IMG/VR virus record: IMGVR_UViG_3300023215_001208
Coordinates: 1 to 33,871 of that record
Length of the DNA stretch: 33,871 bases
Reading direction: 5' to 3' (one strand)
Origin: a virus
Each line of letters opens with the position of its first letter. The stretch's first letter is position 1. The notes beneath the pieces were generated by a model. The model was not told where the DNA came from. It was given only the letters and a program-made list of their open reading frames with translations, and did not search any database. Below are positions 14,125-32,396 of the stretch, piece after piece. The position numbers were made by a program, and so were the translations under genes.

Positions 14125-14970
14125 CTAATAGCCCCAAAGTTCTTCTGAAGAACCTACTGGACTTTGAGGGCGTAAAAATGAGGGTAATCGAGAACCTGCA
14201 CTAGCTGAAATATCAGGAGCAGGAATATTTAAATCTCCTAAAGCCATGTTATTAGGTTGGTCTCCGCCTCCAAAAACATCTGGCCAATCAGAAGGATTAA
14301 ACTGTTTTGACTGATTAAATGGGGATGCAGCAACAGCTCCCCCAAAAGCATCTGCCCATCTATTACCCACCCTACCCTGAGTCTGAAGAGTTCTATCTGT
14401 ACTTTGTCCGCGAGGTTGGAACTGTAGGTATTGAGAAGCCTGCTGTAATCTTTGTTGCATGATCCGTTCTTGCATCATAGGTAGCTCATATCGCATTCTG
14501 GCGATCTCCCCTCCCACGTCTGCCAAAGCCCCTCCCCGCGCTGCCGCTAGGTTGCCGAATCCGACGCCCTGCGGCCCTGGGGAGAAGGATAGGCCCCTAC
14601 GGGCCAGATCTGCCTGAAGATTGTTCTCAGCCCCCGCAAAGCCCCTATTAACAGCCCCGGCGCGGGCCAGTCCATAATAATCAAGAGCCTCTTGACTATT
14701 GGGGAGAGACCTACCGAGCTGACTTTCAAATCTATCAAACAAATCAGTACTAAATTGCTGCGCACGCGGGTCATTATAGAAGTTACTAGTAGTCCCAGTT
14801 TGTTTTGTAGATTTCTTACTCCCACCCCCAAATAATCCACCTAAGAAACTTGAAACTATGGGAAGTCCAAATTTAAGTAGTGGGAATACTAGTGGAGCTA
14901 TTGCCAGGTTAACCCCCTCTAAGCTAGGGGCGGGCGGGGGATTCATTAGGAATTGCAACAGTTCGTTCAT
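14125..14970 (-). CDS. Internal virion protein, T7 gp14-like
   Basis: The 281-aa protein has a hydrophobic N-terminal segment (residues about 20-50, LAIAPLVFPLLKFGLPIVSS then GGLFGGG) followed by an Ala/Gln-rich helical middle (QADLARRGLS, MQQRLQQASQYLQFQ) and a Pro/Gly-rich tail. T7 gp14 and its analogues have this organisation: a membrane-inserting channel part of the ejectosome. The start has GGAG seven bases upstream and overlaps the end of the exported protein gene by 47 bases. Bases about 14510-14690 inside it are strikingly GC-rich. Confidence 0.6.
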   Translation of the reverse strand: MNELLQFLMNPPPAPSLEGVNLAIAPLVFPLLKFGLPIVSSFLGGLFGGGSKKSTKQTGTTSNFYNDPRAQQFSTDLFDRFESQLGRSLPNSQEALDYYGLARAGAVNRGFAGAENNLQADLARRGLSFSPGPQGVGFGNLAAARGGALADVGGEIARMRYELPMMQERIMQQRLQQASQYLQFQPRGQSTDRTLQTQGRVGNRWADAFGGAVAASPFNQSKQFNPSDWPDVFGGGDQPNNMALGDLNIPAPDISASAGSRLPSFLRPQSPVGSSEELWGY

Positions 14971-15256
14971 TCGGTTTCTCCTTCTTTACCCAATTTAGTT
15001 CCGCATTCAAAACATAGTCTTTGGAACCATATCTTAGTAACATAGCACTGTACCACTTAGTATACTGTGTTTGTAATTCATCTAGTTTTTTCTTCTGCAT
15101 GTCTAATTGAAATGATAATTTAAGAATGCTATTTTCTGCTTGTAACAACTGGATAGCAAGTCCTTGCACAAGCAACCTATCCTCATCTTTTAATGCCTCG
15201 GGAGCCTGTGCCCCTAAAATACTAACCGTTAGTAGAAATAAAAAAAGTGTCCGCAT
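14924..15256 (-). CDS. Exported coiled-coil protein with Sec signal peptide (110 aa)
   Basis: ATG 15256 is chosen because AAGGA lies about eight bases upstream; a TTG at 15277 would extend the frame but hide the signal peptide. The product opens with a classical signal peptide, MRTLFLFLLTVSILGA, with likely cleavage before QAPEALK. The mature part is a charged coiled coil (LLQAENSILKLSFQLDMQKK) and a basic tail ending ESPARP. It would act in the periplasm or envelope. It sits among tail and ejection genes, so it could be a virion-associated, entry or lysis factor. No family is recognised. Confidence 0.65.
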   Translation of the reverse strand: MRTLFLFLLTVSILGAQAPEALKDEDRLLVQGLAIQLLQAENSILKLSFQLDMQKKKLDELQTQYTKWYSAMLLRYGSKDYVLNAELNWVKKEKPNERTVAIPNESPARP

Positions 15257-15266
15257 TTTAATTTCC

Positions 15267-15362
15267 TTAAATCGCAATACAGGGAGTCCCCGCGGTCCCT
15301 ATTAGAATTCCATTCTTAAACTCCAGGCCATCAATTACCTCTCCAACTAGTTCGCGGCACAG
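15267..15362 (-). other. Orphan frame resembling the end of the upstream lipoprotein
   Basis: Between two genes, a frame without a good start codon reads ELVGEVIDGLEFKNGILIG and ends TPCIAI. It resembles the C-terminus of the gene at 15347-16051 (VLINAVIKNGIIIGGTCAAN): both carry KNGIxIG followed by Cys and a few residues. It overlaps that gene's stop in another frame. It may be a duplicated end module, an alternative C-terminus reached by frameshift, or the relic of a small gene. Confidence 0.3.
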
Positions 15363-16051
15363 GTACCACCTATGATAATTCCGTTTTTAATTACTGCATT
15401 GATTAGAACATTTCCACCAGTACAGGTTTCAGTTAAAGGAGTGTCACTGCTTAGCACAGATGGGAATGCTCTGGTAGCTGTACCACTGCATACCTGAAGC
15501 TCTTTGGTTGTGGTCTGAAAACCTGTCCATCCATCTTCAACTCCATCAACCCCAAAAGTGCAATCAGCATCTCCAGATAAGGTTCGGCCGTAAAAATTTC
15601 CACTAATTGTTAGATTGCTGACTTCAATAGTTCCACTGGCATCTTTACTAATCCCTACAAAACTACCAGTAGTTCCATCAGTAGTATTAGCAAAAAACAT
15701 TCTCCCCTGAACTCTCGTAGTGGTAGACTTTCCTGCATGAAAATCTTCTGAAAATATATCAAGCCACTCGTCATCTACAGTGCCTATAACGTATGTACTG
15801 GCAGCGGTAGGTACTATATTGGTTGCTAGAACCAAAGCTGGTCCCCCAGCAGCAATCTCCATCCAAACAGTGGAGCCCGCAAAAAACTCCAGCTTAGTGT
15901 TGTCCGCCGGGTCTTGCCTAATATTCCAGAAAGCAGTCCCCGCGGTGTTGCCAATATTCACACTCTCTGTATTGATTTCGCCTAACTGTCCTCTTAGAGT
16001 ACATGAGGTTAAAATTAAAATAATAATTGCACTAATTCTAAGGTGTCCCAT
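15347..16051 (-). CDS. Putative lipoprotein, fibre-like (234 aa)
   Basis: The N-terminus is a lipoprotein signal peptide: MGHLRISAIIILILTSC, with the lipobox LTS-Cys17. The mature part is Thr/Gly/Ser-rich, beta-predicted and reminiscent of phage fibre or appendage proteins (LVLATNIVPTAASTYVIG, DDEWLDIFSEDFHAG). Four further cysteines (DADC, LQVC, TETC, GGTC) suggest disulphides in an oxidising compartment. It overlaps the fibre gene at 16038 by 14 bases. It could be displayed on the host envelope or become part of the virion after export. The combination is unusual for a tail-gene cluster. Confidence 0.6.
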   Translation of the reverse strand: MGHLRISAIIILILTSCTLRGQLGEINTESVNIGNTAGTAFWNIRQDPADNTKLEFFAGSTVWMEIAAGGPALVLATNIVPTAASTYVIGTVDDEWLDIFSEDFHAGKSTTTRVQGRMFFANTTDGTTGSFVGISKDASGTIEVSNLTISGNFYGRTLSGDADCTFGVDGVEDGWTGFQTTTKELQVCSGTATRAFPSVLSSDTPLTETCTGGNVLINAVIKNGIIIGGTCAAN

Positions 16052-16544
16052 TCACAACTCCTGTATACATATACTCAAATTGTCCAGTAGAAAGAACTCT
16101 AAATGCTGAATAAGTATATTTATTTGCTTTAAGTCCCACAGCAGGTTTAGTTGAGAATTCCGCAGGCCAAGTTACCCTCCATCCGCCAGTACCATCTTGA
16201 AGAAATCTCCAAATTATCGTAGTATTAGTAGCATAGGAAGGTGCTACCAGTGTTAAGTCTGCTGTAAGAGTTACATCTAAAAATACTATCGTACCAGCCA
16301 CACCAGTAACAGTAGTCGTAATGTTCTGAATAATCTGTATTTCACCTGACTTTAAGTTTAATATAGCTTCAGTAACAAGGCTTCTTATTTCTCTCTGAGT
16401 TACATAGTCGCTTGGTGCTCTACTATTTCCCGCATTAGTAATTCTACGCCCATGAAAGTCTAAATTCTTAGAACTTAAAAAATCCAATTCCTGCCGCATC
16501 CTACCCGTTATAACATGGGCATCCTGTATACTTCTAATACTCAT
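16038..16544 (-). CDS. Tail fibre or appendage protein (168 aa)
   Basis: Starts in an ATGA overlap with the large tail protein. The segment LDFHGRRITNAGNSRAPSDY followed by VTQRE matches a pattern common near the shaft of phage tail fibres (the family's ...rItnv..P....DyVTk.e...). A Thr/Val-rich beta domain (ITTTVTGVAGTIVFLDVTLT) and a compact end follow. It has no signal peptide and no cysteine, unlike the next gene. It is probably a short fibre or an adaptor linking nozzle and fibre. Confidence 0.6.
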   Translation of the reverse strand: MSIRSIQDAHVITGRMRQELDFLSSKNLDFHGRRITNAGNSRAPSDYVTQREIRSLVTEAILNLKSGEIQIIQNITTTVTGVAGTIVFLDVTLTADLTLVAPSYATNTTIIWRFLQDGTGGWRVTWPAEFSTKPAVGLKANKYTYSAFRVLSTGQFEYMYTGVVNGTP

Positions 16545-19500
16545 TATTGCACAACCTTCTCTTTCATAGAAGTTTCATGCCCACTAAGGGTATAACGATA
16601 GTGTACCCAATACCTATGAAAAGCAGCAGTAGCATCCAACTCAAGTCTGATAATAGTCCCTTTAATGGTCTTTGGAAGATTAACTTCATAAACGTCATCT
16701 ACATCTAAAACCGTAGTAATACTCCCAGTAGCAATAGAAGCGTCCGCCCCAAAGAGTTTATAGTTAACAGTAGTCCCCCCTGCAATCATTCTTACCCGAA
16801 ATGACCTAAACTTTGCAAGTTTCGCAAACTCCGTTGGCCCGATCTGGTCGAATTTCTTAGCCACCGGGAGGATTTCTACTTCCTCCGGTTTGAGCATCTC
16901 ATAGAACTCAAAGGGATTTGCCCCACTGAATTCCATCTTATAATCTGTAAAGAAAACATCCGTTGTAAAATAATGAAAGGCAGTTCTACGGCCCGTAGTA
17001 TTAATAATGGAAGTAGTTCCAGCAACGCCGTCAAGGTAAGGAGTAAGAGTGACATTGTTTCCCTCTGTATCAATAACGAAGGGTATAGTTCTAATTCTTT
17101 TCTTCGACGGTATGCCAAAGTTTGTGCTGGGAACTGCTAGGAACCGCATTCTATCCGGCAGAGCCTCAATGGCGCGGGGCTGAACAAGGCCATAAAATTC
17201 AAAAACGGAATCCCCAGCCGCTTGTAAATCTGCTCCTAACTCAAATCCTTTTAATTCTGATGTAAATATGTGGGCATAGGTTCCTTTCCCACTGTAGTTA
17301 ACTGTACTAGTAGACTGTGCCGACCTATCAACATTGGGAGTAACTGTAACGGTATTCCCCAGAGTATCAATCTCGAAGGGTAGATGATAAAAACGCTTCC
17401 TACCAGCTACTCCGTAATTAGTGGGGGGAATTCTAAGGTGATTAAGCTGCTCAGGACGGACTTCATAATCTAAAGCCCAATATAGTAGCTTAAAGTCAAC
17501 CATCGTTCCCGTAATTTGGATTTGAAACGATTTGCCAAGGTTAATACTCTCAGAGTTAATTTCATAAGTTTTGAGAGTGACCCCATTAAAAGCAACTCCA
17601 GAAGCGATAGTAACGAGAGACCCGGAATCTTTGGCTAGTTTAATTGTAACCGTTGCCGCGTTATTTGTGTCTGCAAGTATTTTAAGTGTATATACATCCT
17701 TTCTTCTATTCGGAAGTTGAGCATCAATAAAGGGCGATAATATTGTAACAGCAAATCCTGCCGTATCATTATCAAATCCTTTTGTATCCGGGTCATCTAT
17801 TTTTCTAAGGTAATGATCCCCGGCATCACCAAATCCCGCTAAGAGAGTTCCATCCTCTTCCTCATAGAGTGAAACTGGGTCCATGAAAGATGCATACCAG
17901 TACTGTTGTTCAAAATCATAAATAATTACCCGCCTATCCCCATCCGAAAGTGGAGACATAGTAAATAGCTTTCCTTTATGAACTGCACAGTCATACGTGA
18001 CTGAATTCTGTGCCCCCATGCTTACACTCGGGTGACCGTGGCGATTTTCACCATTGTAAAGAAGAGAAGTTTCACCTACTATAGCTTGTGTAACTGCACC
18101 CGAGGTTATTCTCCATCCATCACTAGCCATATAAATAACTTGGTGATTATATAGAGCGGCGGGGGTACTAATAGGAGGATTACCAATGCCGAGCGGAATA
18201 ATTCTCGCGTCGATAGTTCCATCAGCAAGTAACTCCAATGTCCCTTGGATTTGATAGATGTCTTCCGTGGTTCCCACAAGTAATGAGTTGGCATCGCTTT
18301 TCATTATCCAAAGGTTTCGTTCTGTTTGATCCCCTGAAAAATCCAATCCCGCACGGGTTTCAATAGCATCGGGATTTCGGGAATCCGAAATTAAAACTTC
18401 ATCCCAGGTTAGATAAATGGTACGATCACCATAGGTTCCTACAATATCAATAATATCATCTGGAAGAGCGGCTAGAAATAAATTAACCTCAATACCATCA
18501 TTAACCGCGTCAATATCTAGAGTGTCATCAGTAAAAGACGAAGCACTAGTAACTTCTTTAATACGATACCAAGTGCCAGTTCCATGGATACCCCGCTTTC
18601 TTCGGAAGATCCAGGCTTTATCCGCCCCTCCAAGAGAAGCAGGGGTAACTGTAATATGTTGACCGTCTGCAATAATAGACAATGAAAGCGTTCCAACTGG
18701 GCTTTTTGCAAGATAGATGCCGTTGTCGTCCATATTTTGTTGGTAATAGTCGTATTCCCCTTTTAATGAACCGGCATGCAAAAATTTAATGTCACCAAAC
18801 TCCAATGCTTCAGTCGGTCCCGCTTCAAATGAAACTACTACGGTTTCAATATCCGACCAGCCTAAATTAGTATTTTCCCCAACGCGGGTAAAGTCACTTC
18901 GATTAGCTCGGAACGTGCTCCACTGACTAGCCCCTAAGTTAAATTGATTAGGAATATCACTTTGATTAAATTCTATAAAGAAATTATCCTTTTCCTGTCC
19001 AGTAGCATCCCCGGAAGAACTGTTAAGATAGACTTCAATGCGGGCTTTAACTGCTGTAGAACTATCTTTAAATTTTACAGAAAAGAGAAAGACATCATCT
19101 TCTTGAGTGGCTCCACTAAAAGAGCCATCCTGGGAAGAAATGTGTTTAATAATAAATCTTCCTGTAGTAGAATCCGTAGATCCAAGAACCTTAATTCCTT
19201 CGTTGTAACTTACATCAACAAATATCCCCTCTGTAGCCGAAGACCACGCCACATGCCCCCCGTCAATATAAGCAGCAGGTTTAGTAAGTAGGACTGCCGT
19301 AGGAGCACCAGGAGCAGAAATACCAAGATTACTAATACTAGCGCCATCATCCTTCTTTTTTAGACTCCCGCTAGTTATAAGCACATGGCCCAAAGCGGAT
19401 CCAAATCCGGTACGCACCGATTCCCCGCCTGAGAGAACTGTGGTAGAAAAGGTTTTAGCTTCATCTACATCTTTCTTAACAACGCCATCAAGAGTATAAA

Positions 19501-19720
19501 TATAACGATGCTTAACGCCGTTAAGAACTTTAGAATAAATCCCCGCGATAGCATCGGGTTGAAGGGGAGAAACTTTGTCAGCCCCCCGGATAAGAGTTAG
19601 CGATCCCTTCTCATCCAGATGGACATTATCCATTCGCAGGAGTCCCCTGGAATCCCCATTAATAGGGTCTCCATCTGGAATCCAACCAGAGCTAAAATCT
19701 CTTTGTCCTAGCTCGGGCAT
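16544..19720 (-). CDS. Large tail nozzle-type protein (1058 aa)
   Basis: The N-terminus (DFSSGWIPDGDPINGDSRG, LLRMDNVHLDEKGSL) is typical of podovirus tail nozzle or stabiliser proteins (T7 gp12 or tail tubular B class), which often have beta-propeller domains. In the middle, YDCAVHKGKLF and RVIIYDFEQQYWYAS support this. Toward the end come three copies of a ~96-aa unit beginning near residues 761, 858 and 953 (PPTNYGVAGRKRFYHLPFEID; VPSTNFGIPSKKRIRTIPFVID; GPTEFAKLAKF). They look like jelly-roll modules that may bind sugars. It overlaps the small membrane-protein gene by one base. It is longer than T7 gp12 (~794 aa), mainly through these repeats. Confidence 0.75.
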   Translation of the reverse strand: MPELGQRDFSSGWIPDGDPINGDSRGLLRMDNVHLDEKGSLTLIRGADKVSPLQPDAIAGIYSKVLNGVKHRYIYTLDGVVKKDVDEAKTFSTTVLSGGESVRTGFGSALGHVLITSGSLKKKDDGASISNLGISAPGAPTAVLLTKPAAYIDGGHVAWSSATEGIFVDVSYNEGIKVLGSTDSTTGRFIIKHISSQDGSFSGATQEDDVFLFSVKFKDSSTAVKARIEVYLNSSSGDATGQEKDNFFIEFNQSDIPNQFNLGASQWSTFRANRSDFTRVGENTNLGWSDIETVVVSFEAGPTEALEFGDIKFLHAGSLKGEYDYYQQNMDDNGIYLAKSPVGTLSLSIIADGQHITVTPASLGGADKAWIFRRKRGIHGTGTWYRIKEVTSASSFTDDTLDIDAVNDGIEVNLFLAALPDDIIDIVGTYGDRTIYLTWDEVLISDSRNPDAIETRAGLDFSGDQTERNLWIMKSDANSLLVGTTEDIYQIQGTLELLADGTIDARIIPLGIGNPPISTPAALYNHQVIYMASDGWRITSGAVTQAIVGETSLLYNGENRHGHPSVSMGAQNSVTYDCAVHKGKLFTMSPLSDGDRRVIIYDFEQQYWYASFMDPVSLYEEEDGTLLAGFGDAGDHYLRKIDDPDTKGFDNDTAGFAVTILSPFIDAQLPNRRKDVYTLKILADTNNAATVTIKLAKDSGSLVTIASGVAFNGVTLKTYEINSESINLGKSFQIQITGTMVDFKLLYWALDYEVRPEQLNHLRIPPTNYGVAGRKRFYHLPFEIDTLGNTVTVTPNVDRSAQSTSTVNYSGKGTYAHIFTSELKGFELGADLQAAGDSVFEFYGLVQPRAIEALPDRMRFLAVPSTNFGIPSKKRIRTIPFVIDTEGNNVTLTPYLDGVAGTTSIINTTGRRTAFHYFTTDVFFTDYKMEFSGANPFEFYEMLKPEEVEILPVAKKFDQIGPTEFAKLAKFRSFRVRMIAGGTTVNYKLFGADASIATGSITTVLDVDDVYEVNLPKTIKGTIIRLELDATAAFHRYWVHYRYTLSGHETSMKEKVVQ

Positions 19721-19920
19721 TATTCCTCTTCTTTAATTACTTTACCATCTTTTGCAAATAAAAGCCCAATCCCAGCCATTATAGCCATAAATGGAGGGGA
19801 TGTAAAATTAAGAAGAATTGTAAGATCCCCAACGGCACCACTAACTCCTGCAAGGATTGTGGAAAATCCCATAAGAGTAGTTTTCAAATTCCTTCGCTTA
19901 AAAATTTTAAAAAAGTTCAT
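19720..19920 (-). CDS. Small holin-like membrane protein (66 aa)
   Basis: This 66-aa protein has a basic start (MNFFKIFKRRNLKTTLMG) and two hydrophobic segments (about residues 15-35 and 40-57, the second ending MAIMAGIGLLFAKDGK). The short acidic C-terminus is KVIKEEE. The layout fits a small holin or a membrane protein of the kind frequently found among podovirus tail genes with an AKD motif after the second span. A second holin-like gene exists at 28403, so which one times lysis is unclear. GGAG lies upstream of the start. Confidence 0.55.
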   Translation of the reverse strand: MNFFKIFKRRNLKTTLMGFSTILAGVSGAVGDLTILLNFTSPPFMAIMAGIGLLFAKDGKVIKEEE

Positions 19921-19929
19921 AATAATCTC

Positions 19930-20763
19930 CTAAGATCCCAGCGTAGCGGTAGGATCAAACTGCCCATATCTACCTGCACGAATCCGACGTGAACTAAAAG
20001 GTGGAAACCTCTTATTAGCACTATAGTACTTGTTCTTAATACTCTTATACATCTGAGTTAACAGTAGAAATTTTTGACTAAAGTACTGAGATCCTTCAAT
20101 ATTCTGGCCCTTCCCCTCGGCTTTAAAAGCTCGGGAGCAAATGTATGCCTTCAAAGTTCTCCTAAGAATATAACGTGGCAGAATATAGTAGTCATTAGTG
20201 ATGTCAGGGGACTTATAGCATGAAATAATTACTCTAGAATTAATAGTACTCCCCGATACTCCAAGGGCAGGATTCTCCTCATCTGCATCCCCTGTAATAG
20301 TTTCATTAGGAATAGGGAAAAATCTTATCTGATTATAATCCGCATTCCATAGGTAGCCTCTAACCCCACCAGTACTAGTTCTATACTGAGCATCCAAATC
20401 CTCCACATCAATACTAGTAAGAGGATCTAAAACGTTACCTTTCCAAGTAATCTGAATGATATCTTTGATAGTTGGCAACAGCGTGTAGACTCCAGTTCCA
20501 GAGGTTACCCCAATTGCATAACGGTGAAATATGGAATGACATGCATCCGCCAGTTCAATTTCTCCATCATTAGCTAACTGCTGTAAGTAGGCGTCAGTCC
20601 AAATAGGAGTAACCGCTGCCCCGCTAACATCCAAATCTCTATCATTAAGATACCTTCGATAATAGTCTGAAAGTGAACTCCGCCCTATCTCTAGAGAAGA
20701 TTCTCCTGGTATAAAATCCCCTGGTAATACTTCCCCAGGAATAGTATCCACTATTGGGGGCAT
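19930..20763 (-). CDS. Head-tail connector / adaptor protein (277 aa)
   Basis: The protein has an N-terminal proline-rich arm (VDTIPGEVLPGDFIPGESS). The helical and beta body (YLQQLANDGEIELADACHSI; YTLLPTIKDIIQITWKG; QIRFFPIP) is the pattern of podovirus adaptor-type proteins that join portal and nozzle. It lies directly before the nozzle gene, as expected. The C-terminus is basic (RRIRAGRYGQFDP). Its body resembles in style the product at 23413, so the two may form successive rings of the tail or be diverged relatives. GGAGG lies about eleven bases upstream of the start. Confidence 0.55.
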   Translation of the reverse strand: MPPIVDTIPGEVLPGDFIPGESSLEIGRSSLSDYYRRYLNDRDLDVSGAAVTPIWTDAYLQQLANDGEIELADACHSIFHRYAIGVTSGTGVYTLLPTIKDIIQITWKGNVLDPLTSIDVEDLDAQYRTSTGGVRGYLWNADYNQIRFFPIPNETITGDADEENPALGVSGSTINSRVIISCYKSPDITNDYYILPRYILRRTLKAYICSRAFKAEGKGQNIEGSQYFSQKFLLLTQMYKSIKNKYYSANKRFPPFSSRRIRAGRYGQFDPTATLGS

Positions 20764-20854
20764 TCTTAATTATTCCTCCACATCACCACGTAGACCTTTC
20801 ACAATTCCGCTATAAACAAAGTAATGCAATAGGCTAGGAATAGAGGTCGCGTGG

Positions 20855-21202
20855 TTATTGGATAATATTCTCAATTGCAGTAATTACAGCCACTTCTCCC
20901 GCCGTCTTATCATCCTTTGCGGCCTTGATGGCAATGCAATCATCAGGAAAGACATTGCACGCCGCTTTGTAAACATCACGCATTCCAAGGCGCAGGATCG
21001 AGTTAAACAAAGCTTGACTACGCAGCTCCTGTGTATCTCCGGCATATTTAAGCGTGCCGTCCGAATTCTTCTGCGCCTGAATCCACTTCTCAACAACGAC
21101 AGCAAGCTGCCCGTCGAGGGCATTGGGAGTGGTGAATCTTCCCACTGAATCCGTAGCCACAAGGGGCAGCGCAATAGCAAGCAAGCAAATTAGTGTCTTC
21201 AT
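20855..21202 (-). CDS. Exported protein with Sec signal peptide (115 aa)
   Basis: The start overlaps the stop of the fibre gene (TAATG). The product begins with a signal peptide, MKTLICLLAIALPLVA, cleaved probably before TDSVG. The mature protein is helical (DGQLAVVVEKWIQAQK; ELRSQALFNSILRLG) with two cysteines close together (ACNVFPDDC) that could form a disulphide after export. No family is recognised. Codons are GC-richer than in the connector gene downstream and similar to the 3' half of the fibre gene, so both may have been acquired together. Confidence 0.6.
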   Translation of the reverse strand: MKTLICLLAIALPLVATDSVGRFTTPNALDGQLAVVVEKWIQAQKNSDGTLKYAGDTQELRSQALFNSILRLGMRDVYKAACNVFPDDCIAIKAAKDDKTAGEVAVITAIENIIQ

Positions 21203-23328
21203 TAGTTTACACTCCTCGAAATCTCATACCAGTTCACTCCATCACAAATAAGCTGAATCGCATCATCAGCAGTCGTAACAAAATTTCCAGCAAGTTTCAA
21301 ATTGTTTCCATCTGTAAAAGTAAGAATACCATCAAAGATCAGCGTCAACAGCCGGCCGTTGTTTGCCGCGTCACAGGTATTCACAGTAGTGATTGTTGTG
21401 GTTCCCGTGATGTGGAACAGGTTGCCGGTTCCAAGCGCAGTTGTAGTTGCACTCGCAACATTAGCTGAGTCGGCAAAGGTAATAGTCCCGGTCGTTGTAT
21501 CCAGTCCTCGGGCGCTGCTGAACGACATAAACTCAACATTGCCGTCAGTGAGCAACTGGAGCAAATCATTCGTTACAGAGTCGCCCTCAACTAGCAGGAC
21601 TTCTGTATTCCCGGTCGTCGTAGTCGGATCTTTAGTCCACGCAGTCTGGGAACCGCCTAACTCGAAGACTTTCGCGCCACCAACTGAAAAACCAAGGTTA
21701 TCGGCTGCAACGCGATACATGCCGGTATTGTTGTCGCCCTTAAAAGTGTAGTTGGGAACATTGTCCGCGCCAGCAATAAAACGCATCCTGATACTGCCAT
21801 CGTCGCCTTTGAGGCTGTTCAGCTCATTCGTGTCAATCGCAAATATCTCGGACCCGCCAACATAAGCCGTGAGAGTGTTGTCTGACCTTTCATACCACTC
21901 CGTATTCCCATCACCAAAGCTATACCCACTCCCCGCGCCAAAGGCCCCGCCGACATCGACATTGATGCCGCCGGTTCCGCCCACTGCAACCAGAACTGTT
22001 CCTGCGCTACTCTGCCACTCCCAAAGATGATTCGCGGATTGGCCCGCACCTGCCTTTACAACGCCTAGAGTTATTCCTGTAGTTGCTGTGGGATTTTCAA
22101 TCAGCGCCGTTTGGGAGCCACCTAGCTCTAAGAACTTCTGAGCACCAACGGAGAAGCCAATGTTGTTGGCTGCAATGCGGTACATGCCGGAGTCATTGTC
22201 GCTCTTAAACGTGTAGTTAGGGACATTCATTGCACCAGCCGCAAAGCGCAATCTAGGACTACCATCGCCGCCTTTAAGGCTATTCAACTCATTGGTATCA
22301 ATAGCAAACACATCAGAAGTTCCGATTCTAAAGCGTAATGTATCGTCAGCACTCTCGTAGATCTGCGTATCCCCATCCCCAAACGCAGTCCCGCTCCCCG
22401 TACCAAAAGTCCCGCTGGAATCAACAATGATGCCTCCGCTGACGACCTTTAGACCAGGAATAGTAAGCAGGCTAGAACTATAGGTTGCATTCCCTGTATC
22501 CGCAACTACAGGATTTCCAACAGAGTCCGCGCTTAGAATGTCATTTGTTGAACTAGCCCCAGTAATTAAATTGTCCCAAGAAGGAACAGCCGAAATTGAT
22601 CCAGTACCCGTTTGAGTAAGAAATTGCTTGCCCGCAGTAGTATTCCCTGCCAAGCGTGCCCAAGCTGGCGTAGCATTACCATGCAAAGTGTCCCCTAAAA
22701 CAACTGACGCAGTAAGAGAATCAGAATGCTTTGTAGAAAGGATATTATGATTCGGAGCTATAGTAGCCCAAACCGCCGCACCGGAATCATACATACAGAG
22801 AACAATAGCTGTTCCACCCCCAGTTGTACAATCTGTTGAAGTACTCCCATCTGTTACTCGGGCTAGGTCGCCATCTGTAGGACTTCCGGGTAAACTAGCA
22901 ACTACAGTAACTGGTCCTAGTGAATCTGCAATAGCAACTAACTCAGCCCCCAATTGATTGTGATGATGGGAAGCATATATCCCCAGAACTGTTGCCCCAT
23001 CATTATGTGCCGCCGCTGAAGTTCCATCAAATGCCCGCCCACTTGAACAAACCGTAAGAGTATTAGTAGAAATAGTACAGTATTTGATTATTTCATTGTC
23101 AATCTTAATTAATCCTGCTTCATTAGCACCCGGAGAAAAGAATTCACTAGCATCGGTTAGAATAATACTAGTAGCTGAGGCTGTAATTGAACCATTTAAC
23201 TCATCCCGTGCGGAATTAGCCAAAACAGTAATATCATCATGGTCAGGCAAAGAGCCTGGGTAAACTGCGGTATTCTGCGCGTTAACTATAACAATAAAAG
23301 ATAGCAGTAGAAATAGATATTTAATCAT
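21202..23328 (-). CDS. Fibre-like protein with Sec signal peptide (708 aa)
   Basis: The gene opens with a signal peptide, MIKYLFLLLSFIVIVNA, ideal for cleavage before QNTAVYPG; AAGGAA is the ribosome site. The mature N-terminus has the beta domain seen in many phage fibres (TSIILTDASEFFS, RAFDGTSAAAHNDGATV, ASHHHNQLGAEL). The middle carries two copies of a module containing NSLKGxDGS, VPNYTFK and GMYRxAAxNxGFSVG, spaced 155 residues apart. The end is a compact beta domain (ITTVNTCDAANNGRLLTLIF). Several cysteines are present. Receptor-binding fibres are normally cytoplasmic until assembly, so the signal peptide is odd. It may be an exported adhesin-like or virion protein. Confidence 0.7.
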   Translation of the reverse strand: MIKYLFLLLSFIVIVNAQNTAVYPGSLPDHDDITVLANSARDELNGSITASATSIILTDASEFFSPGANEAGLIKIDNEIIKYCTISTNTLTVCSSGRAFDGTSAAAHNDGATVLGIYASHHHNQLGAELVAIADSLGPVTVVASLPGSPTDGDLARVTDGSTSTDCTTGGGTAIVLCMYDSGAAVWATIAPNHNILSTKHSDSLTASVVLGDTLHGNATPAWARLAGNTTAGKQFLTQTGTGSISAVPSWDNLITGASSTNDILSADSVGNPVVADTGNATYSSSLLTIPGLKVVSGGIIVDSSGTFGTGSGTAFGDGDTQIYESADDTLRFRIGTSDVFAIDTNELNSLKGGDGSPRLRFAAGAMNVPNYTFKSDNDSGMYRIAANNIGFSVGAQKFLELGGSQTALIENPTATTGITLGVVKAGAGQSANHLWEWQSSAGTVLVAVGGTGGINVDVGGAFGAGSGYSFGDGNTEWYERSDNTLTAYVGGSEIFAIDTNELNSLKGDDGSIRMRFIAGADNVPNYTFKGDNNTGMYRVAADNLGFSVGGAKVFELGGSQTAWTKDPTTTTGNTEVLLVEGDSVTNDLLQLLTDGNVEFMSFSSARGLDTTTGTITFADSANVASATTTALGTGNLFHITGTTTITTVNTCDAANNGRLLTLIFDGILTFTDGNNLKLAGNFVTTADDAIQLICDGVNWYEISRSVN
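21611..21972 (-). repeat. Fibre module repeat, copy 2
   Basis: Downstream copy of the fibre module, spaced 465 bases (155 codons) from copy 1. Shared protein features in order are GGIxVD, FGxGSGxxFGDG, SDxFAIDTNELNSLKGxDGS, VPNYTFK, GMYRxAAxNxGFSVG and ELGGSQTA. DNA identity is high in the NELNSLKG stretch (21779-21850 against 22244-22315). Confidence 0.7.
22075..22437 (-). repeat. Fibre module repeat, copy 1
   Basis: Upstream (N-terminal) copy of the 155-residue-period fibre module. It matches copy 2 in order and length with scattered substitutions, mostly synonymous or conservative. A linker (LGVVKAGAGQSANHLWEWQS) separates the two modules. Confidence 0.7.
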
Positions 23329-23351: not shown

Positions 23352-23450
23352 TCACGCAGCTACTACAAAATTTATTCCAGTTACACTAGTATTGAGAATA
23401 ATGTAGTACCTCTCATATAATTCGCGAAGGAATACTCCGATAATGAGCAA
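23352..23450 (-). other. Possible small gene (32 aa, TTG start)
   Basis: After the connector gene, a second frame beginning with TTG at 23450 reads LIIGVFLRELYERYYIILNT and ends SVTGINFVVAA. The strand-like RYYIILNTSVTG looks protein-like rather than random, but there is no ribosome site and it overlaps the end of the connector gene. It could be a small tail peptide or a relic. Confidence 0.2.
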
Positions 23451-24060
23451 TCATATCGGTCAGAATCCTGTTAGCCATATGCTTTTTAAGATTATTCAGA
23501 TAGGTAAAATAATCCTTAGTCCATAGACCTGCCTTGCCATACTCTTCTGACTGTTCTAGAAGATCCATTGTACTATAATACTCTAAAATTCTTTCGTAGG
23601 CAAAAGGAATACTAGGAACCGTTGCGGCAGCTAATGTATTAGCAGAGGCTTTATAAAGAACTGTAAAAGTTCCTAATCCTGTAGCTAACCTGGGAAATAC
23701 TGAAATCCAACGCCCATCCCATACAGTAAATCCTTCCGATTCCCCTTTAGCCAATTCCCAGTCAGTCCGCAATTCTCTTAAAAGAACATGGGCATAATAA
23801 TCTAGCCATCTGTTAGTATTATTATTAAAAATCCCAGCTACATGGATGTAGTCGGGAATAATACCTCTAAAATTATAATAGCTAGTTTCATCTTCTAATG
23901 GAATTTCATAGTTGCCTGTGATAGTCCTAGCCACTGCTACTACTTCATCATAGCCATCCTGAATGGATTCATTAATATCATCAGCAGAGAAAAAGGTTAT
24001 CCCAGAATCATCCAGATTAAATCGGACGCGGGATGCTATATTATCTCTAGTTAATGGCAT
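23413..24060 (-). CDS. Head-tail connector / adaptor-like protein (215 aa)
   Basis: The 215-aa protein begins with short helices (MPLTRDNIASRVRFNLDDSG; ADDINESIQDGYDEVVAVA) and then beta strands (YYNFRGIIPDYIHVAGIF; GTFTVLYKAS). It ends in a helical pair rich in Tyr and Leu. This is the usual build of podovirus gp-adaptor or head-completion proteins that dock below the portal. It is encoded after the capsid genes and before fibre and nozzle, in line with that role. A GC inverted repeat (24075-24116) lies just upstream of its start, and no strong ribosome site is visible. Confidence 0.6.
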   Translation of the reverse strand: MPLTRDNIASRVRFNLDDSGITFFSADDINESIQDGYDEVVAVARTITGNYEIPLEDETSYYNFRGIIPDYIHVAGIFNNNTNRWLDYYAHVLLRELRTDWELAKGESEGFTVWDGRWISVFPRLATGLGTFTVLYKASANTLAAATVPSIPFAYERILEYYSTMDLLEQSEEYGKAGLWTKDYFTYLNNLKKHMANRILTDMIAHYRSIPSRII

Positions 24061-24119: not shown

Positions 24120-24245
24120 TTATTGTCCAAGTTCAGCTACTTTACCCTTGCCAGGCAGGAAAAGGAAAGTGCGAACAGAATCCCTACAGGGGTGCGGAAA
24201 TCCCCCGTTTAGACTCAATCGGACAATTCTTTTACGCGTAGACAT
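24120..24245 (-). CDS. Small basic protein (41 aa)
   Basis: ATG 24245 lies 14 bases inside the end of the methyltransferase gene, with AGAGAAG upstream. The frame begins MSTRKRIVRLSLNGGFPHPC and ends FLFLPGKGKVAELGQ, and it fills the otherwise empty space between two genes. It is basic, with one cysteine and no membrane segment. No family is recognised. Tight packing and a proper start make it a plausible gene. Confidence 0.45.
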   Translation of the reverse strand: MSTRKRIVRLSLNGGFPHPCRDSVRTFLFLPGKGKVAELGQ

Positions 24246-24774
24246 TAAAAACTTCTCTCGCAAGGATATCTTCCCTAGTACAGACATTCCTCACTTTCTT
24301 GCCAGATAATATTGTGTAATATTCATTTGGGATATCTTCTGCTACACTTTTGATTTCCCCAAAGCCGTATTCAATAAGCTCAGACCGAAAATACGGAGTA
24401 TGCATAGGGACTACATTAAAATCATATGAACTAGTCTGCCTACCATACAGAGTATTTAGCCAATATTCTTTTTTCCCCTGAACATTATCTAAAAATCGTT
24501 GGGAGCATTCAGCAAACTCAGGATAGGAAAATATAACCTCTCCGCCCTTATGCAATACCCTGCTTATTTCATACAGAATGTCTTCCCTTTTATTTATTGA
24601 TACGTGTTCAATAGCATGGAACATCCAAACTGCATCAACTTCTCCATCCTTGTAAGGCAGAGGAGAAGAAAGAATATCTAAAACCACATTGGGCTTAAAA
24701 TCCGCACTAGCATCTATATTGATAACCCCTTCCTTTTTAATAGGCTTATCTCGACTACAAAGGTTAAGGGTCAT
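24232..24774 (-). CDS. SAM-dependent methyltransferase-like protein (180 aa)
   Basis: This class I methyltransferase-like protein overlaps the glycosyltransferase gene by ATGA. Recognisable parts are the first strand (MTLNLCSRDKP), the acidic strand (GVINIDASADF), LPYKDGEVDAVWMFHAIEHV (motif IV region with the EHV turn) and EISRVLHKGGEVIFSYPEF. These match the COG4627/type 11 layout of small sugar- or lipid-modifying methyltransferases. The usual Gly-rich motif I (LNLGSG) is LNLCSR here, so cofactor binding may be altered. With the adjoining glycosyltransferase it may modify a virion or host surface glycan. Confidence 0.7.
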   Translation of the reverse strand: MTLNLCSRDKPIKKEGVINIDASADFKPNVVLDILSSPLPYKDGEVDAVWMFHAIEHVSINKREDILYEISRVLHKGGEVIFSYPEFAECSQRFLDNVQGKKEYWLNTLYGRQTSSYDFNVVPMHTPYFRSELIEYGFGEIKSVAEDIPNEYYTILSGKKVRNVCTREDILAREVFNVYA

Positions 24775-25502
24775 GCCAACTGTTCCTGAACACGCTCCGC
24801 GTATTTAATTCCACGATCTATACTTTTCTCAGGAGGTTTAGCCCCAAAGAAGTCTTCTTCAAATTTCTTTACAATATCAAATTTATCCGAGTTGATAGCA
24901 TAACGATCTACAATATGTGAAGTGTCAATAGAAGTATCGCATACTACCTTAGCTTCAGAATAATTTGTCTTCAAACGGCAACAATAATAAACATCCTCCG
25001 TACATTGACTTGCAGTAACAAAATAAGGAGGCTTCATATTCTTGAAATAGGAAGTTCTAAGAAGAGCACAAGAAAATCCCACCGCTCCAACACTCAAAAC
25101 GCCCTCTTTATCCCTTATATCCTCTACCTGCTTTAGCCCACCGTCAGAAATCTCTTCAAAGACCATAGGAGGAAATGGGTACCCACGTACATAGGTTAAA
25201 CCCGCTGCGACCCCAATATTTTCATCGGCATTCATTAGGGCTACCAATTTCGGCAATGCATCTATGGGCAGAAGAACATCGTCGTCATAGAAGAATAAAA
25301 ATTCAGATTCCTGTTGTAAGGCAAAAACTGCCGCCTGATTCCTCATGTTATCTATGGACATCCGCCGCGAGCCATATAAATAAAATTTATACTTTCCAGA
25401 GAGTTCCTTCCCCCAGTTATACCAGTTTTGGCAATGGTTAGGATAGGCTATCCCGTCAATACTTGTAAGTATGTTGCAACCTACTGTTATACTGGATTCC
25501 AT
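24771..25502 (-). CDS. Glycosyltransferase, GT-A (family 2-like)
   Basis: ATG 25502 is chosen. The open frame extends upstream to 25640 but only through codons antiparallel to the decoration-protein end, giving an implausible Leu-rich stretch. The 243-aa product has a GT-A fold pattern: a first strand (SITVGCNILTSIDG), a helix with Asn/Arg (SIDNMRNQAAVFALQQ), and FLFFYDDDVLLP with the metal-binding Asp73-Asp75. An acceptor-side segment with ECVxCAL-like features (GAVGFSCALLRTSYF) and CTEDVYYCCRL follow. It transfers a sugar from a nucleotide donor to an unknown acceptor. It is inserted between decoration and connector genes and coupled to a methyltransferase. Confidence 0.75.
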   Translation of the reverse strand: MESSITVGCNILTSIDGIAYPNHCQNWYNWGKELSGKYKFYLYGSRRMSIDNMRNQAAVFALQQESEFLFFYDDDVLLPIDALPKLVALMNADENIGVAAGLTYVRGYPFPPMVFEEISDGGLKQVEDIRDKEGVLSVGAVGFSCALLRTSYFKNMKPPYFVTASQCTEDVYYCCRLKTNYSEAKVVCDTSIDTSHIVDRYAINSDKFDIVKKFEEDFFGAKPPEKSIDRGIKYAERVQEQLA

Positions 25503-25554
25503 TATATTTTCCGCATTCTGAAGGGGGCCAGGTCTCCCCAGCCCCCCAACAGGT

Positions 25555-26061
25555 TTACATAGCACGAACAAATGCTTTAATAGTTCCAGTTCTAGCTGTA
25601 GAACTATCAGCAGTAGTACTAGCACTAGAAGCACTAGCACCAGTTGTACCTATTGCAACACATACAGGCATATAAGCAGAAGCAAGTCCAGCCGCCTGCC
25701 GACTAAATGCATTAGCTACCGTATTGGGTAGCATAACATCGCCAAGAACAATTGCAGGAGAAGAAGCATAAGGGTCAGTACTAGCTGCCCTAGTCCCCAT
25801 AACAAACTTAATCTTGGTAACTACCCCGTACGCTTGAATCTTACCACGAGCACCAGCAGCAATAGCTTCAGTACAAACTCCAGCAAAAAATAGAGACTTA
25901 GCAGCAGTTGAATCCGATAGTTGGTGAACATCCAACCCGTCATCACTCCCATCCATTGCAAAAGCAACAGGCTCGCCAACAACAAAAGCATTAGCACTGT
26001 CATTTTGTACTTGAATGAGGATACGTTCTGGCTTATCTTTTGTTAATTCAGCAATTTGCAT
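25555..26061 (-). CDS. Capsid decoration-type protein (168 aa)
   Basis: The gene lies immediately after the major capsid gene with GGGGGA upstream. The small protein begins with ILIQVQNDSANAFVVGEPVA and continues with beta strands and a Gly/Ala-rich core (FAGVCTEAIAAGARGKIQ, YGVVTKI). This is the organisation of DUF2190-like head decoration proteins, which stabilise the capsid lattice. A Ser/Ala/Thr-rich loop (TTGASASSASTTADSS) near the end could be exposed and is a candidate site for glycosylation by the neighbouring glycosyltransferase, though that is speculation. Confidence 0.65.
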   Translation of the reverse strand: MQIAELTKDKPERILIQVQNDSANAFVVGEPVAFAMDGSDDGLDVHQLSDSTAAKSLFFAGVCTEAIAAGARGKIQAYGVVTKIKFVMGTRAASTDPYASSPAIVLGDVMLPNTVANAFSRQAAGLASAYMPVCVAIGTTGASASSASTTADSSTARTGTIKAFVRAM

Positions 26062-26076
26062 TTACATATCCCCCTA

Positions 26077-27174
26077 TTAAGAAGAAGCGTCAATGGACCC
26101 GGTACGTCGGATGCCATGCGCTACGCCTTGTTTACGCCGATTATTGCAAGTCATATTACCCATCCAAAGAATAAACTTAACCATTGCATCCTGACTGGTA
26201 GGAGTACGCGGGTCAGTTGTTACAAAATCCGAATCACTTTCATAACGGATCTTCCAAAACTGAGTATTGAGCATATACAAAGTCCCAGCAGTAGTAGTAT
26301 TGGTATTTCCATTTGCAGCATCATGCATAAACTCATCAGTAACAATGGTCATGCCTTTCCATACAATGTTGTTAAATGGAAATTCCTGATTAGTACTAAT
26401 TGGATGCCGTGTTCTATTATAAAGAATACCCTCTAGAATAGAGTAAGTTTCCTCGTCAGTAATTGCAAAATCAGGAGAACCACCAGGACCACGAGTACAG
26501 CGTTGATAGAGTTGAGTTAACCCTGCCAATACCTCTGTCCCAGTATCAAAACTGGAACCTGAAAAATCCTGAGTCTGATTACGCCACCAGGAATTAGCTG
26601 AATCTCCTTGGGCAATATTACCAACTGTTAAAGCTGACGAAGGGCTATAATGAACCATAGAAGCCAGAGTATTAATTCCTGTCGCCCCTAGATCACCATC
26701 AACTACAGCATCAACGATCGTTCCTCCATTTGGTTTATTTCCCTGGAAGATAGCTTTCGGAATAAGCTCTTGAATTCCAAGGGAAGCCTGCTGAATTTTA
26801 GATGTAAATAGATCTACAATTTTATGTTTATTTTGCTTTAGCTCTTTACCTGAGATTACAACTGATACTGCTGCTTGTCTCCATTCGTACAGGGCTTTTG
26901 TAATTCCATTGATGGTATCAGTTTTAAGAACATCAAAGCCATCAAACCAGTGAGCATTACCTAGTGCGTACATCAAAGGCTCTTCAATATGAGTCCCCCC
27001 ATCAGCACTTTCGTATGCGCCATTATCAATGATGCGCTTCCAGAAAGCATTGGATGTTGAAATATTATCAAAGAGCTGTTTGCGACTATTCTCAACTGAA
27101 AGTGAAAACAGTGCGTCTAAATTAATAGTTTTAGCTGAGGGCTGTCCTGCTGCCCCAAGGGTTAAAGTTGCCAT
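26077..27174 (-). CDS. Major capsid protein
   Basis: A 365-aa protein encoded directly after the scaffold gene. It shows an N-terminal arm (SAKTINLDALFSLSVENSRK), a GTHIEEPLMYALGNAHWFDG beta region, and YEWRQAAVSVVISGKELKQN followed by a long spine-helix-like segment. C-terminal strands follow (MTIVTDEFM; TLYMLNTQFWKIRYESD; DAMVKFILWMGNMTC). Order and composition fit a HK97-fold capsid subunit of the type seen in podo- and siphoviruses. Oddly, no Shine-Dalgarno sequence lies before its ATG, although this should be the most abundant protein; coupling to the scaffold gene may compensate. Confidence 0.85.
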   Translation of the reverse strand: MATLTLGAAGQPSAKTINLDALFSLSVENSRKQLFDNISTSNAFWKRIIDNGAYESADGGTHIEEPLMYALGNAHWFDGFDVLKTDTINGITKALYEWRQAAVSVVISGKELKQNKHKIVDLFTSKIQQASLGIQELIPKAIFQGNKPNGGTIVDAVVDGDLGATGINTLASMVHYSPSSALTVGNIAQGDSANSWWRNQTQDFSGSSFDTGTEVLAGLTQLYQRCTRGPGGSPDFAITDEETYSILEGILYNRTRHPISTNQEFPFNNIVWKGMTIVTDEFMHDAANGNTNTTTAGTLYMLNTQFWKIRYESDSDFVTTDPRTPTSQDAMVKFILWMGNMTCNNRRKQGVAHGIRRTGSIDASS

Positions 27175-28071: not shown

Positions 28072-28413
28072 TTAGGCTCCTTTAGGATCATACTCTACAT
28101 GGATATGATCCCTGTGCTTTGAATCCCCATAGATAACTTGGAATCCTTTTTCTAAGTGCTCCCTTAATTCTTTTGCAATATCCCAAGCATCCGCACCCAT
28201 CTTTCTAGTCCGTATATCAAAAGCTAGCCCTGTTGAATGAAGGCTGAATTTTTTAGTTTTCTTCCGAACTAAACTGGTTACACATAAATCGTAACCATAC
28301 CCTACGCATATAAAGTCACTGAGACCCATCGCTTTCCAAATAATAGGCTGGGGAACAATAACCTCTCCGTCCAGCCCTTTAAGATTAAAGAAAATGCCAG
28401 GCTTAAATCTCAT
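28072..28413 (-). CDS. M15-family peptidase, putative endolysin (113 aa)
   Basis: ATG 28413 (AGAGG upstream) is preferred; a TTG at 28419 is the only extension. The protein carries the zinc ligands of peptidase family M15 (VanY/L-alanyl-D-glutamate type): His59 and Asp66 in SLHSTGLAFDIRTR, and His105 in DHIHVEYD. The length fits a bare catalytic domain with no cell-wall-binding region. It would cleave peptide cross-links or stems of peptidoglycan at lysis. It overlaps the holin-like gene by 11 bases, forming a lysis cassette, and ends just before the scaffold start. Confidence 0.85.
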   Translation of the reverse strand: MRFKPGIFFNLKGLDGEVIVPQPIIWKAMGLSDFICVGYGYDLCVTSLVRKKTKKFSLHSTGLAFDIRTRKMGADAWDIAKELREHLEKGFQVIYGDSKHRDHIHVEYDPKGA

Positions 28414-28597
28414 TTCCAAACCTCTGCTTTAAATAAGAAAGAATAGATACTCCTGTTATTGCAAATGCCGCTCCCGCCCCTGTATCTAATAGCTCAGAAA
28501 TATCTAAGTTGTTGGCCATTACCGCATTACCCAAATAAGACCCAATAACACAGGTTAAGGTTATTAAAAAGTCCCATTTACTAGCTTGAGGTTTCAC
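28403..28597 (-). CDS. Holin-like membrane protein (64 aa)
   Basis: This 64-aa protein has two hydrophobic segments, about residues 10-27 (FLITLTCVIGSYLGNAVM) and 40-56 (AGAAFAITGVSILSYL), separated by an acidic loop. The charged C-terminus is KQRFGNEI. The layout and its position directly before the M15 peptidase gene fit a small holin that opens the inner membrane for lysis. It overlaps the upstream membrane-protein gene by ATGA. Confidence 0.65.
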   Translation of the reverse strand: MKPQASKWDFLITLTCVIGSYLGNAVMANNLDISELLDTGAGAAFAITGVSILSYLKQRFGNEI

Positions 28598-28965
28598 GTC
28601 TTCCTCTTGAAAGTGTTGAAAAGATTTAAAGATAAAGCCCCTAAAACACTAAGAATTATAAAATTCTGAGTTCCTGCAACGTTATCTATTTTTTCATCCA
28701 TGAATTTTATAGCTACAACTGCTTCTGAAATAATATCGACCTTTTCTTCTAACCTTACAATCCTAAAATTTTGATCCTTAATCGCCTGCTTATTAAATTC
28801 AGGCGTAGCCGTCTGAGCAATTAGAAAAACAGCCGAAATAAAAGCCCAAGCAATTAGCCAAGAAAAAAATAACTTTTTAGTGTCCTGTAAATACACTATT
28901 AGCCATTCTAAAGAGCTTATTAAATTATTGACTAAAAGGTTCATTTCTATAACAATTAATTTCAT
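28594..28965 (-). CDS. Two-span membrane protein in lysis cassette (123 aa)
   Basis: ATG 28965 overlaps the portal stop (TGATG); a GTG at 28968 is also possible. A membrane span lies near residues 33-51 (FFSWLIAWAFISAVFLIAQ). A charged coiled-coil-like loop follows (NFRIVRLEEKVDIISEAVVA), then a second hydrophobic segment near the end (FIILSVLGALSLNLF) and a basic tail. It may be an antiholin, a second holin or a spanin-like factor of the lysis cassette. The sequence alone does not decide. Confidence 0.55.
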   Translation of the reverse strand: MKLIVIEMNLLVNNLISSLEWLIVYLQDTKKLFFSWLIAWAFISAVFLIAQTATPEFNKQAIKDQNFRIVRLEEKVDIISEAVVAIKFMDEKIDNVAGTQNFIILSVLGALSLNLFNTFKRKT

Positions 28966-31028: not shown

Positions 31029-32396
31029 TTAATTTATCGTCTGTCGAATGTTATCATACCACTCGGAATATTCCCGCCCACTAAGAATTCTATTACTAAC
31101 TCGGTATTTCTTCCGCTTGTGTTCTCCAAGGACATCCAGAAAGGAGCCAGGAACTATTCTCCTCTTAACTAATTCCTTGTAAATAGGCCGCGAGCCCGCA
31201 TAGTAACGTAAACAATCATAAGCATGATCTTCAACGCCTCGCTGCCGCTCATCGGAAAATTGCGGTTCACCATTAGTCTCGCCAACCTGTTTCCTTCGCT
31301 GGGATTGAATCTGCTGTATAATCTTAGAACATCCATTAGGATAGGCAGGGGACTTCTTAATAAAGAATAGCCGTGGACTCCCTTCCTTTCCTGTTACTGG
31401 ATGCTTAATCTTAGGATTAACTCTAAGAAGCTCATCAATACGATTTCGAGTCATATACTCATCGTTATTGGCTTTAATCCAATGAATTGGAGGAGCTTCC
31501 ATGCTGGTATCTTTAAATTCTTCTTCCACAGACCAAAAGCGGTTATATTTTTGCATATTCTTGGAGAAGATACTAGGATCAGCTAATGAATATTTATATT
31601 TTTCATAAACATTATTACCCCTGTCAATTCCTAGCTCTTCAATATTAATCCTATGCTCTGAGATTAGTGTTCCTTCTTTATAATACTCCCTATAGCACAA
31701 GTACCAATCCTTATAAGCCGAGAACCATAGAACCGATGTAGGCGAGGACGCCCCGTAGTCCAGTACCCTTACAAGTTCACCTTTTTCAATGAATTCCTGA
31801 TAAAGCCCTGGGGGAATAGTACTTAAAACTGAAAAATCGTCAAGCGTATGGACCATTCCCTCAGTAATACCCCAAACGCCCATTACAAACCTTCTTACAA
31901 AGGCTTTATCACGACTGAGTAAGGTGTCTATTAATTCCTCTTTAAGAGCTGGATTATCAATGGTAGTTGCTTGGTACATCTTATGCGTATCAGAGAAGGA
32001 ATACTTCTTCCCCCGCATATTAACCCGTTGCTCACTGTGAGCATCCGAATCAGGATGATACTTCCTGTAAATCCAATGCTCAAAAGAATCTGGATTGCAA
32101 GCAATAAGCATGTAGGAAGGGATTTCTATTTCATTGGTATTTGGATTCCGTGGGTATTCTTCTGGGTTAGCAATGTCCGGGAGAAGAGCCTTATCCCATC
32201 GGCCAATACGAGCATCCAATTGGTCATAGACAGATTCCCCAACTTCTTCTGCTTGATCTATGAAGGCCATATTAATTTCAAGCCCGCGCACTACATTGTC
32301 GTCATAGTCATCCAGATGAAGGAAGAGAAATTCGCTACCATTTGTAAACCTTAACGTCCCCCGCGCATCAGAGCGGAAGCCCCCCCCGCGATTCAT
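31029..32396 (-). CDS. terL: Terminase large subunit, C-terminal part (frameshifted)
   Basis: This frame holds most of the packaging motor. It contains Walker B (INMAFIDQAEE), the coupling motif region (ACNPDSFEHWIYRKY), and an RNase H-like nuclease with Asp213 in VRVLDYGASSPTS, Asp273 in LADPSIF and Asp394 in EDHAYDCLRYYAG. The Walker A part is in the overlapping frame upstream. The two join if the G8 run (bases 32380-32387) had seven Gs, giving one protein of about 537 aa, the normal TerL length. The Met at 32396 is therefore not a real start. It packages DNA into the procapsid and cuts concatemers. Confidence 0.85.
   Translation of the reverse strand: MNRGGGFRSDARGTLRFTNGSEFLFLHLDDYDDNVVRGLEINMAFIDQAEEVGESVYDQLDARIGRWDKALLPDIANPEEYPRNPNTNEIEIPSYMLIACNPDSFEHWIYRKYHPDSDAHSEQRVNMRGKKYSFSDTHKMYQATTIDNPALKEELIDTLLSRDKAFVRRFVMGVWGITEGMVHTLDDFSVLSTIPPGLYQEFIEKGELVRVLDYGASSPTSVLWFSAYKDWYLCYREYYKEGTLISEHRINIEELGIDRGNNVYEKYKYSLADPSIFSKNMQKYNRFWSVEEEFKDTSMEAPPIHWIKANNDEYMTRNRIDELLRVNPKIKHPVTGKEGSPRLFFIKKSPAYPNGCSKIIQQIQSQRRKQVGETNGEPQFSDERQRGVEDHAYDCLRYYAGSRPIYKELVKRRIVPGSFLDVLGEHKRKKYRVSNRILSGREYSEWYDNIRQTIN

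Follow-up and report, generated by a model that had tools for sequence, protein, structure and literature searches.

The window analysed here is the whole of the IMG/VR virus record IMGVR_UViG_3300023215_001208 (33,871 bases), from an uncultivated bacterial virus, and its otherwise ordinary podovirus tail operon contains what appear to be two exported-fibre pairs, one of 708 plus 115 amino acids (aa) and one of 234 plus 110 aa. In each pair, a fibre-type protein with a signal peptide (SP) adjoins a small protein that carries an SP of its own. We consider it somewhat more likely than not that these tail proteins are exported virion appendages, which would be translocated by Sec, oxidised outside the cytoplasm and attached to tails, probably at about the time of lysis. 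Each element has been seen before, be it fibre, tailspike or signal peptide; what may be new is the exported-fibre tail module. The literature searched, which excluded subscription papers and preprints, held only partial mentions of SP-bearing tail fibres and no description of such a module, although a prior description is possible. The first-pass annotation had likewise known of no described system of this composition, but the arrangement proved not to be unique to this podovirus.

All four open reading frames (ORFs) that had been credited with N-terminal export signals were recovered on the minus strand, each with a Sec-type SP. Positions 21202..23328 encode the 708-aa fibre/tailspike-type protein (MIKYLFLLLSFIVIVNA↓QN, the arrow marking the predicted cut), 20855..21202 the 115-aa protein directly downstream of it (MKTLICLLAIALPLVA↓TD), 15347..16051 the 234-aa fibre-like protein, whose SP offers either LTSC or a cut at LRG↓QLG, and 14924..15256 the adjoining 110-aa protein (MRTLFLFLLTVSILGA↓QAP). 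The sequence features of Sec and signal peptidase I substrates (n-region, core and cut site) were present in all four proteins: at each N-terminus, a basic n-region leads into a hydrophobic core, and a small residue stands ahead of the cut, which was placed at VNA↓QN, LVA↓TD and LGA↓QAP in 21202-23328, 20855-21202 and 14924-15256, respectively. A Shine-Dalgarno-like site was found at each start (AAGGAAAT, GAGGAG, CAGGAG, and AAGGAAAT), and 14924-15256 begins at its own ATG, the upstream TTG not being used. The SPs were called with a home-made rule, not with SignalP, and with a simple start-site chooser. This rule selected 8 of 594 genes in distant Mx8-like contigs and 5 of 628 shuffled proteins (about 1%), against 4 of about 12 tail-side genes in the window, for a chance P of about 2e-6 to 1.4e-4, varying with the rate used. 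Glutamine follows the cut (+1 Gln) in three of the four window SPs, provided that 15347-16051 is cut at LRG↓QLG, and in most SPs of the relative L009. Translocation and cleavage of the four window proteins are predictions from these features.

Related genomes were searched for the same arrangement, as the first-pass annotation had proposed, and SPs were found at equivalent positions in L009 and L011, where the SP-less tail proteins also stay SP-less. Both genomes and L010 have the gene order of the window, and the major capsid proteins (MCPs) of L009 and L011 are 38-39% identical to that of the window. In L009, SPs occur on proteins of 692, 117, 387, and 104 aa, whose positions match or lie close to those of the SP genes in the window; a 109-aa protein with an SP plus a second hydrophobic segment may be a membrane protein. 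The positional equivalent of the 110-aa protein in L009 and L011 has 104 aa (MKKLYIVAIMFSSMAFG↓QVE). The 168-aa fibre, the 1058/1169-aa protein, the adaptors and the capsid genes are all without an SP. Among these, the 168-aa fibre (16038..16544, minus strand), which has neither an SP nor a cysteine in the window and served as an internal control, is kept SP-less in L009 (33% identity) and L108 (43% locally). Between L009 and L011, SP and mature part are 65% and 92% identical in the 387-aa fibre, with SP character and A↓Q site kept, 73% and 81% in the 692-aa pair, and 100% and 91% in the 117-aa pair. SP genes also lie ahead of the first adaptor in L098, L100, and L102 (the L098 contig ends within its SP gene, before any adaptor) and beyond the second adaptor in L108; the SP protein of L107 is not fibre-looking. 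In a maximum-likelihood MCP tree, all SP modules fell within one 14-member clade (support 100/99), in which seven members have the module, two lack it and five are truncated. Outside the clade, it was present in 0 of 21 adequately covered rows. L115 was scored as lacking the module, its rule match being a glycosyltransferase-like gene. Judged from these comparisons, the SP trait is inherited.

Domain and structure matches indicate that the body of the 708-aa protein is that of a phage fibre or tailspike, not of a host envelope protein. Residues 44-133 match a domain of cyanophage and pelagiphage structural proteins. The C-terminal 104-aa domain was modelled with a pLDDT of 90, and among solved structures it matched best a tailspike depolymerase from Acinetobacter phage Solidus (E 9.5e-5), with CBA120 TSP4 as a weak second; the predicted viral structures that it matched included pectate-lyase-type proteins and many phage fibre proteins. 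The model thus points to a tailspike/fibre-type architecture for the product of 21202-23328, and its presence in the virion is suggested only by analogy, with Cellulophaga phages. Acquisition of host-type envelope proteins, one of three meanings that had been proposed for the exported set, is disfavoured, since phage fibre modules make up the bodies of these proteins. A fibre-like stretch was recognised by eye in the 234-aa protein (AF2 model, pLDDT 35), and the body of the 110-aa protein is helical or coiled-coil-like by eye. Pfam and PHROGs returned nothing significant for the 115-aa, 110-aa, or 234-aa proteins, and for the first two no match to a known fibre-chaperone family, the likeness being one of gene position only; from that position, both are suspected to be co-exported helpers.

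The tailspike-type domain made it possible to look beyond close relatives. A direct scan of viral contigs with the whole 708-aa protein or the portal found no relatives, but the C-terminal domain alone worked and returned 76 viral contigs. A convincing SP on the domain ORF was recognised, by rule and by eye, at about 18 mostly distinct loci; most other domain ORFs have N-termini typical of cytoplasmic proteins, with a few cut short. Genomic context was taken from the scanned SP loci, without being established for some, such as L046: these loci adjoin portal, capsid, tape-measure, baseplate or tail genes on podovirus- and siphovirus-like contigs. Three to five SP genes stand close together in L025, L071, L081, and L084. 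The next downstream gene carried an SP at 12 of 16 SP-fibre loci but at only 2 of the 40 loci without an SP fibre (P 2.5e-7), and a stricter count gave 10 of 14 (P 2.3e-6). One of the 12, L028, was called by eye, and loci with truncation were excluded by hand. A small SP protein directly after an SP fibre was also seen in L009, L007, L081, and L018.

Cysteines had been noted in three of the four exported products and not in the 168-aa fibre, and the counts agree: the mature 708-, 115-, 234-, and 110-aa parts hold six, two (CX6C), four and none, all even numbers, and the 168-aa fibre none. Those of the 708-aa protein fall into three pairs in the sequence, close together or internal to a domain. 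Both cysteines of its C-terminal domain occurred together in six SP-bearing proteins versus 0 of 48 SP-less ones (P 3.6e-5, or 1.5e-4 after collapsing L009 and L011), and the second alone is kept in 28 of the 48 SP-less copies. This pairing supports the view that the fibres would form disulphides outside the cytoplasm. A high cysteine count as such was rejected as evidence, SP-less relatives of the 708-aa protein carrying up to 16.

The first-pass annotation had also called 15347-16051 a lipoprotein. Its LTSC does fit a lipobox; however, the relatives in L009 and L011 have a plain SP without one, and in the absence of conservation the lipoprotein call is doubtful. The alternative cut LRG↓QLG resembles that of the L009 relative, a 387-aa protein with a plain SP (SVA↓QDT) that is 38% identical over 73 C-terminal residues; a cysteine pair can be matched by eye between the two C-terminal regions. 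On sequence, lipidation appears no more likely than an ordinary signal peptidase I cut at LRG↓QLG. The broader proposal, that fibre-like proteins leave the cytoplasm, is supported by the conserved SPs, their clustering and the cysteine pairing, while its lipoprotein detail is weak.

The closest precedent comes from cultivated marine phages. According to GenBank notes, 12 SP-bearing fibre-like proteins of four Cellulophaga phages, mostly in runs, are structural by experimental MS/MS (tandem mass spectrometry): phiSM gp08, phi18:3 gp085-087, phi10:1 gp091-094, and phi19:1 gp101-104. Within the phi19:1 set, the SP of gp104 (FSFG↓KDYC) was recognised by eye and has no +1 Gln, and gp101 could equally be read as having a lipobox. 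In phi18:3, a further nine virion proteins recorded by MS/MS are without an SP. Like the window, Cellulophaga phi10:1, phi19:1, phi18:3, and phiSM (KC821618, KC821607, KC821620, and KC821616) have SP-bearing genes for fibre- or pectate-lyase-like proteins arrayed in runs next to their tail genes, with +1 Gln in nearly all; unlike it, they belong to other phage families with another host type and do not use Shine-Dalgarno sites, and their records are silent on SPs. Exposure of +1 Gln after signal peptidase I is the Q-rule of Bacteroidota (PMC5837995). Because SP-bearing fibre-like proteins of these four isolates are MS/MS virion proteins, assembly of virion parts outside the cytoplasm is, by analogy, the best supported of the three proposed meanings, which had included virion assembly at the envelope. 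As a separate observation, an SP-plus-N-terminal module, MKKTIYILSILLLTISGVSAQTVIKIKQ, is common to L189 (phi18:3), L190 (Nekkels_1), L194 (phi10:1), and L197 (phi19:1); these phages are classed in Pachyviridae and Assiduviridae, and the C-terminal bodies that follow the module differ.

We propose the following course of events. The host Sec machinery would carry the products over the inner membrane, where, going by sequence features, signal peptidase would cut them, mostly ahead of a +1 Gln. Outside the cytoplasm, the fibres would form disulphides and oligomerise, possibly aided by the small co-exported proteins, while filled heads with tail stubs would assemble in the cytoplasm. Folded fibres would then meet the tails when holin and endolysin breach the compartment barrier, or just after. 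By analogy with the MS/MS-detected Cellulophaga SP proteins, the mature fibres would be receptor-binding or depolymerase appendages of the virion. That this describes a widespread class of tailed phages, with host-matched SPs on Sec-exported fibres, oxidative folding with co-exported helpers and tail joining at or after lysis, we hold to be an even bet. Tailed-phage assembly is generally regarded as wholly cytoplasmic. If many phages export fibres, lysis would double as an assembly step and disulphide-stabilised fibres would become possible; infected cells might show receptor-binding proteins while still intact, and the host of an uncultivated phage might be hinted at by the signal peptide itself. 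The idea can be tested directly in the existing Cellulophaga isolates.

Several points weigh against the proposed export and late tail joining. Cleavage, export and virion presence of the window proteins are predictions, and no assembly intermediate is known. The Cellulophaga proteins are analogues for which no homology to the window proteins is claimed, and their MS/MS matches could come from co-purifying secreted protein or vesicles; the examined MS/MS virion proteins of phi14:2, phi4:1, phi40:1, and phi18:1 lack SPs. The Fisher tests above treat sequences of common ancestry as separate.

Among the alternatives, display for superinfection exclusion survives best, followed by a secreted depolymerase and an uncleaved anchor. 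We regard display as unlikely but worth weighing: exported fibres at the periplasm or surface would mask the receptor against superinfection and against progeny sticking to debris, and need not be virion parts. The export signals and the receptor-binding/depolymerase-type domain would suit this role, for which the T5 lipoprotein Llp, which blocks FhuA in superinfection exclusion, is a phage precedent (PMC9586334). Llp shares with the window proteins a phage-encoded export to the envelope but is a dedicated lipoprotein, not a fibre (PMC9586334). Comparable SP proteins are, however, recorded in purified virions of isolates, the lipobox is unconserved, no outer-membrane anchor is evident, and the genes have a late tail-operon position rather than one of early expression. 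A secreted depolymerase is improbable; here SP proteins would pass through the envelope while infection is under way and break down capsule or exopolysaccharide, which would help progeny to spread. It would account for the tailspike-depolymerase-type fold, and in phiSM the SP-bearing pectate lyase gp09 owes its annotation to similarity only, not to MS/MS; yet most comparable Cellulophaga proteins are MS/MS virion proteins, and in diderm hosts Sec takes a protein no farther than the periplasm, with no additional secretion signal seen. Rather less credible still is that the N-termini are uncleaved, non-exported anchors that insert the fibre in the tail, or in the target membrane at infection. 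The N-terminus of a fibre usually attaches to the virion, and a hydrophobic stretch could serve there, but the SPs have full n-h-c anatomy with cut sites, the +1 Gln fits the Bacteroidota rule in Bacteroidota-type phages, the cysteine pairing is limited to SP-bearing copies, and small non-fibre neighbours carry SPs too. Chance hydrophobic N-termini or wrong start codons, which the home-made rule and simple start-site chooser might let through, are very improbable given the background of about 1%, the retention in relatives, the restriction to one clade and the Shine-Dalgarno-supported starts.

Comparison with other known systems shows partial likenesses. Ordinary tailspikes and fibres (Solidus gp83 and CBA120 TSP4) have the same fold as the 708-aa C-terminal domain; to our knowledge, ordinary phage tailspikes and fibres do not carry signal peptides, and many homologues of this domain lack one, unlike the window copy. 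Virion proteins with Sec-type SPs are familiar from the pIII and pVIII coat proteins of filamentous phages, which differ from the window fibres in being membrane-anchored, extruded without lysis, not from tailed phages and unrelated in sequence. Chaperones of the Tfa/T4 gp38 type are encoded, as in the window, by a small gene directly downstream of the fibre gene, but are cytoplasmic. Porphyromonas gingivalis phages have five Q-rule SP genes of unknown function, which their authors thought could modify the host outer membrane (PMC10367356); these resemble the window genes in their host-matched SPs but were not read as fibres (PMC10367356).

Shine-Dalgarno sites were found at 61% of window genes versus 3-6% in the Cellulophaga phages. 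On this indirect criterion a Bacteroidota host was rejected for the window, and the host is probably not of that phylum. A +1 Gln was present in about 5 of 13 called SPs on three Granulicella (Acidobacteriota) plasmid stretches, L191, L192, and L193 (pACIX901), so that a Q-rule-like bias may exist outside Bacteroidota; from this small sample, an Acidobacteriota host is possible but unproven. GTDB genomes searched with the 708-aa C-terminal domain for a prophage or host yielded five loci, but a convincing SP was absent from all of them, and thus no host was found.

The late genes on the minus strand include the portal, MCP, SU10-type adaptor and long tail-operon protein, and the plus strand encodes the DNA polymerase and primase. 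The MCP on which the family tree was based (26077..27174, minus strand; phrog_9953, E 1.4e-43) is distantly Mx8/Mx9-like. The 708+115 pair sits between two SP-less, minus-strand adaptors: the SU10-type adaptor (19930..20763; Pfam PF24175, E 2.7e-11) and an adaptor-like protein adjoining the 708-aa gene (23413..24060), which is 34% identical to a 212-aa protein of L003 that itself adjoins an SU10-type adaptor. The 1058-aa tail-operon protein (16544..19720, minus strand), also without an SP, is conserved family-wide and 36% identical to the 1169-aa protein of L009.

Further minus-strand features were observed. The terminase large subunit is split into two overlapping ORFs (31029-32396 and 32368-32643), one of 455 aa and the other, of 91 aa, bearing a Walker A motif, against a single 501-aa ORF in L003; as eight consecutive G mark the break, it is likely to be an error of assembly or sequencing, with a programmed shift possible. 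Upstream of the terminase, a 64-aa protein (32647-32841) begins MTRRGIFLTLAGIIAGLFGPARS, which contains a twin-arginine-like motif. Between the portal and capsid genes (28072-28968) lie genes for two small membrane proteins and a product with a weak, below-cut-off Pfam match to M15 peptidases, and by sequence these genes look like a lysis cassette. Methyltransferase-like and glycosyltransferase-like genes (24232-24774 and 24771-25601), whose products could act in modifying the cell surface or proteins of the virion, lie between the capsid gene and the adaptors; their placement is the same in L003, L009, L108, and L111, and one or both occur in several other relatives.

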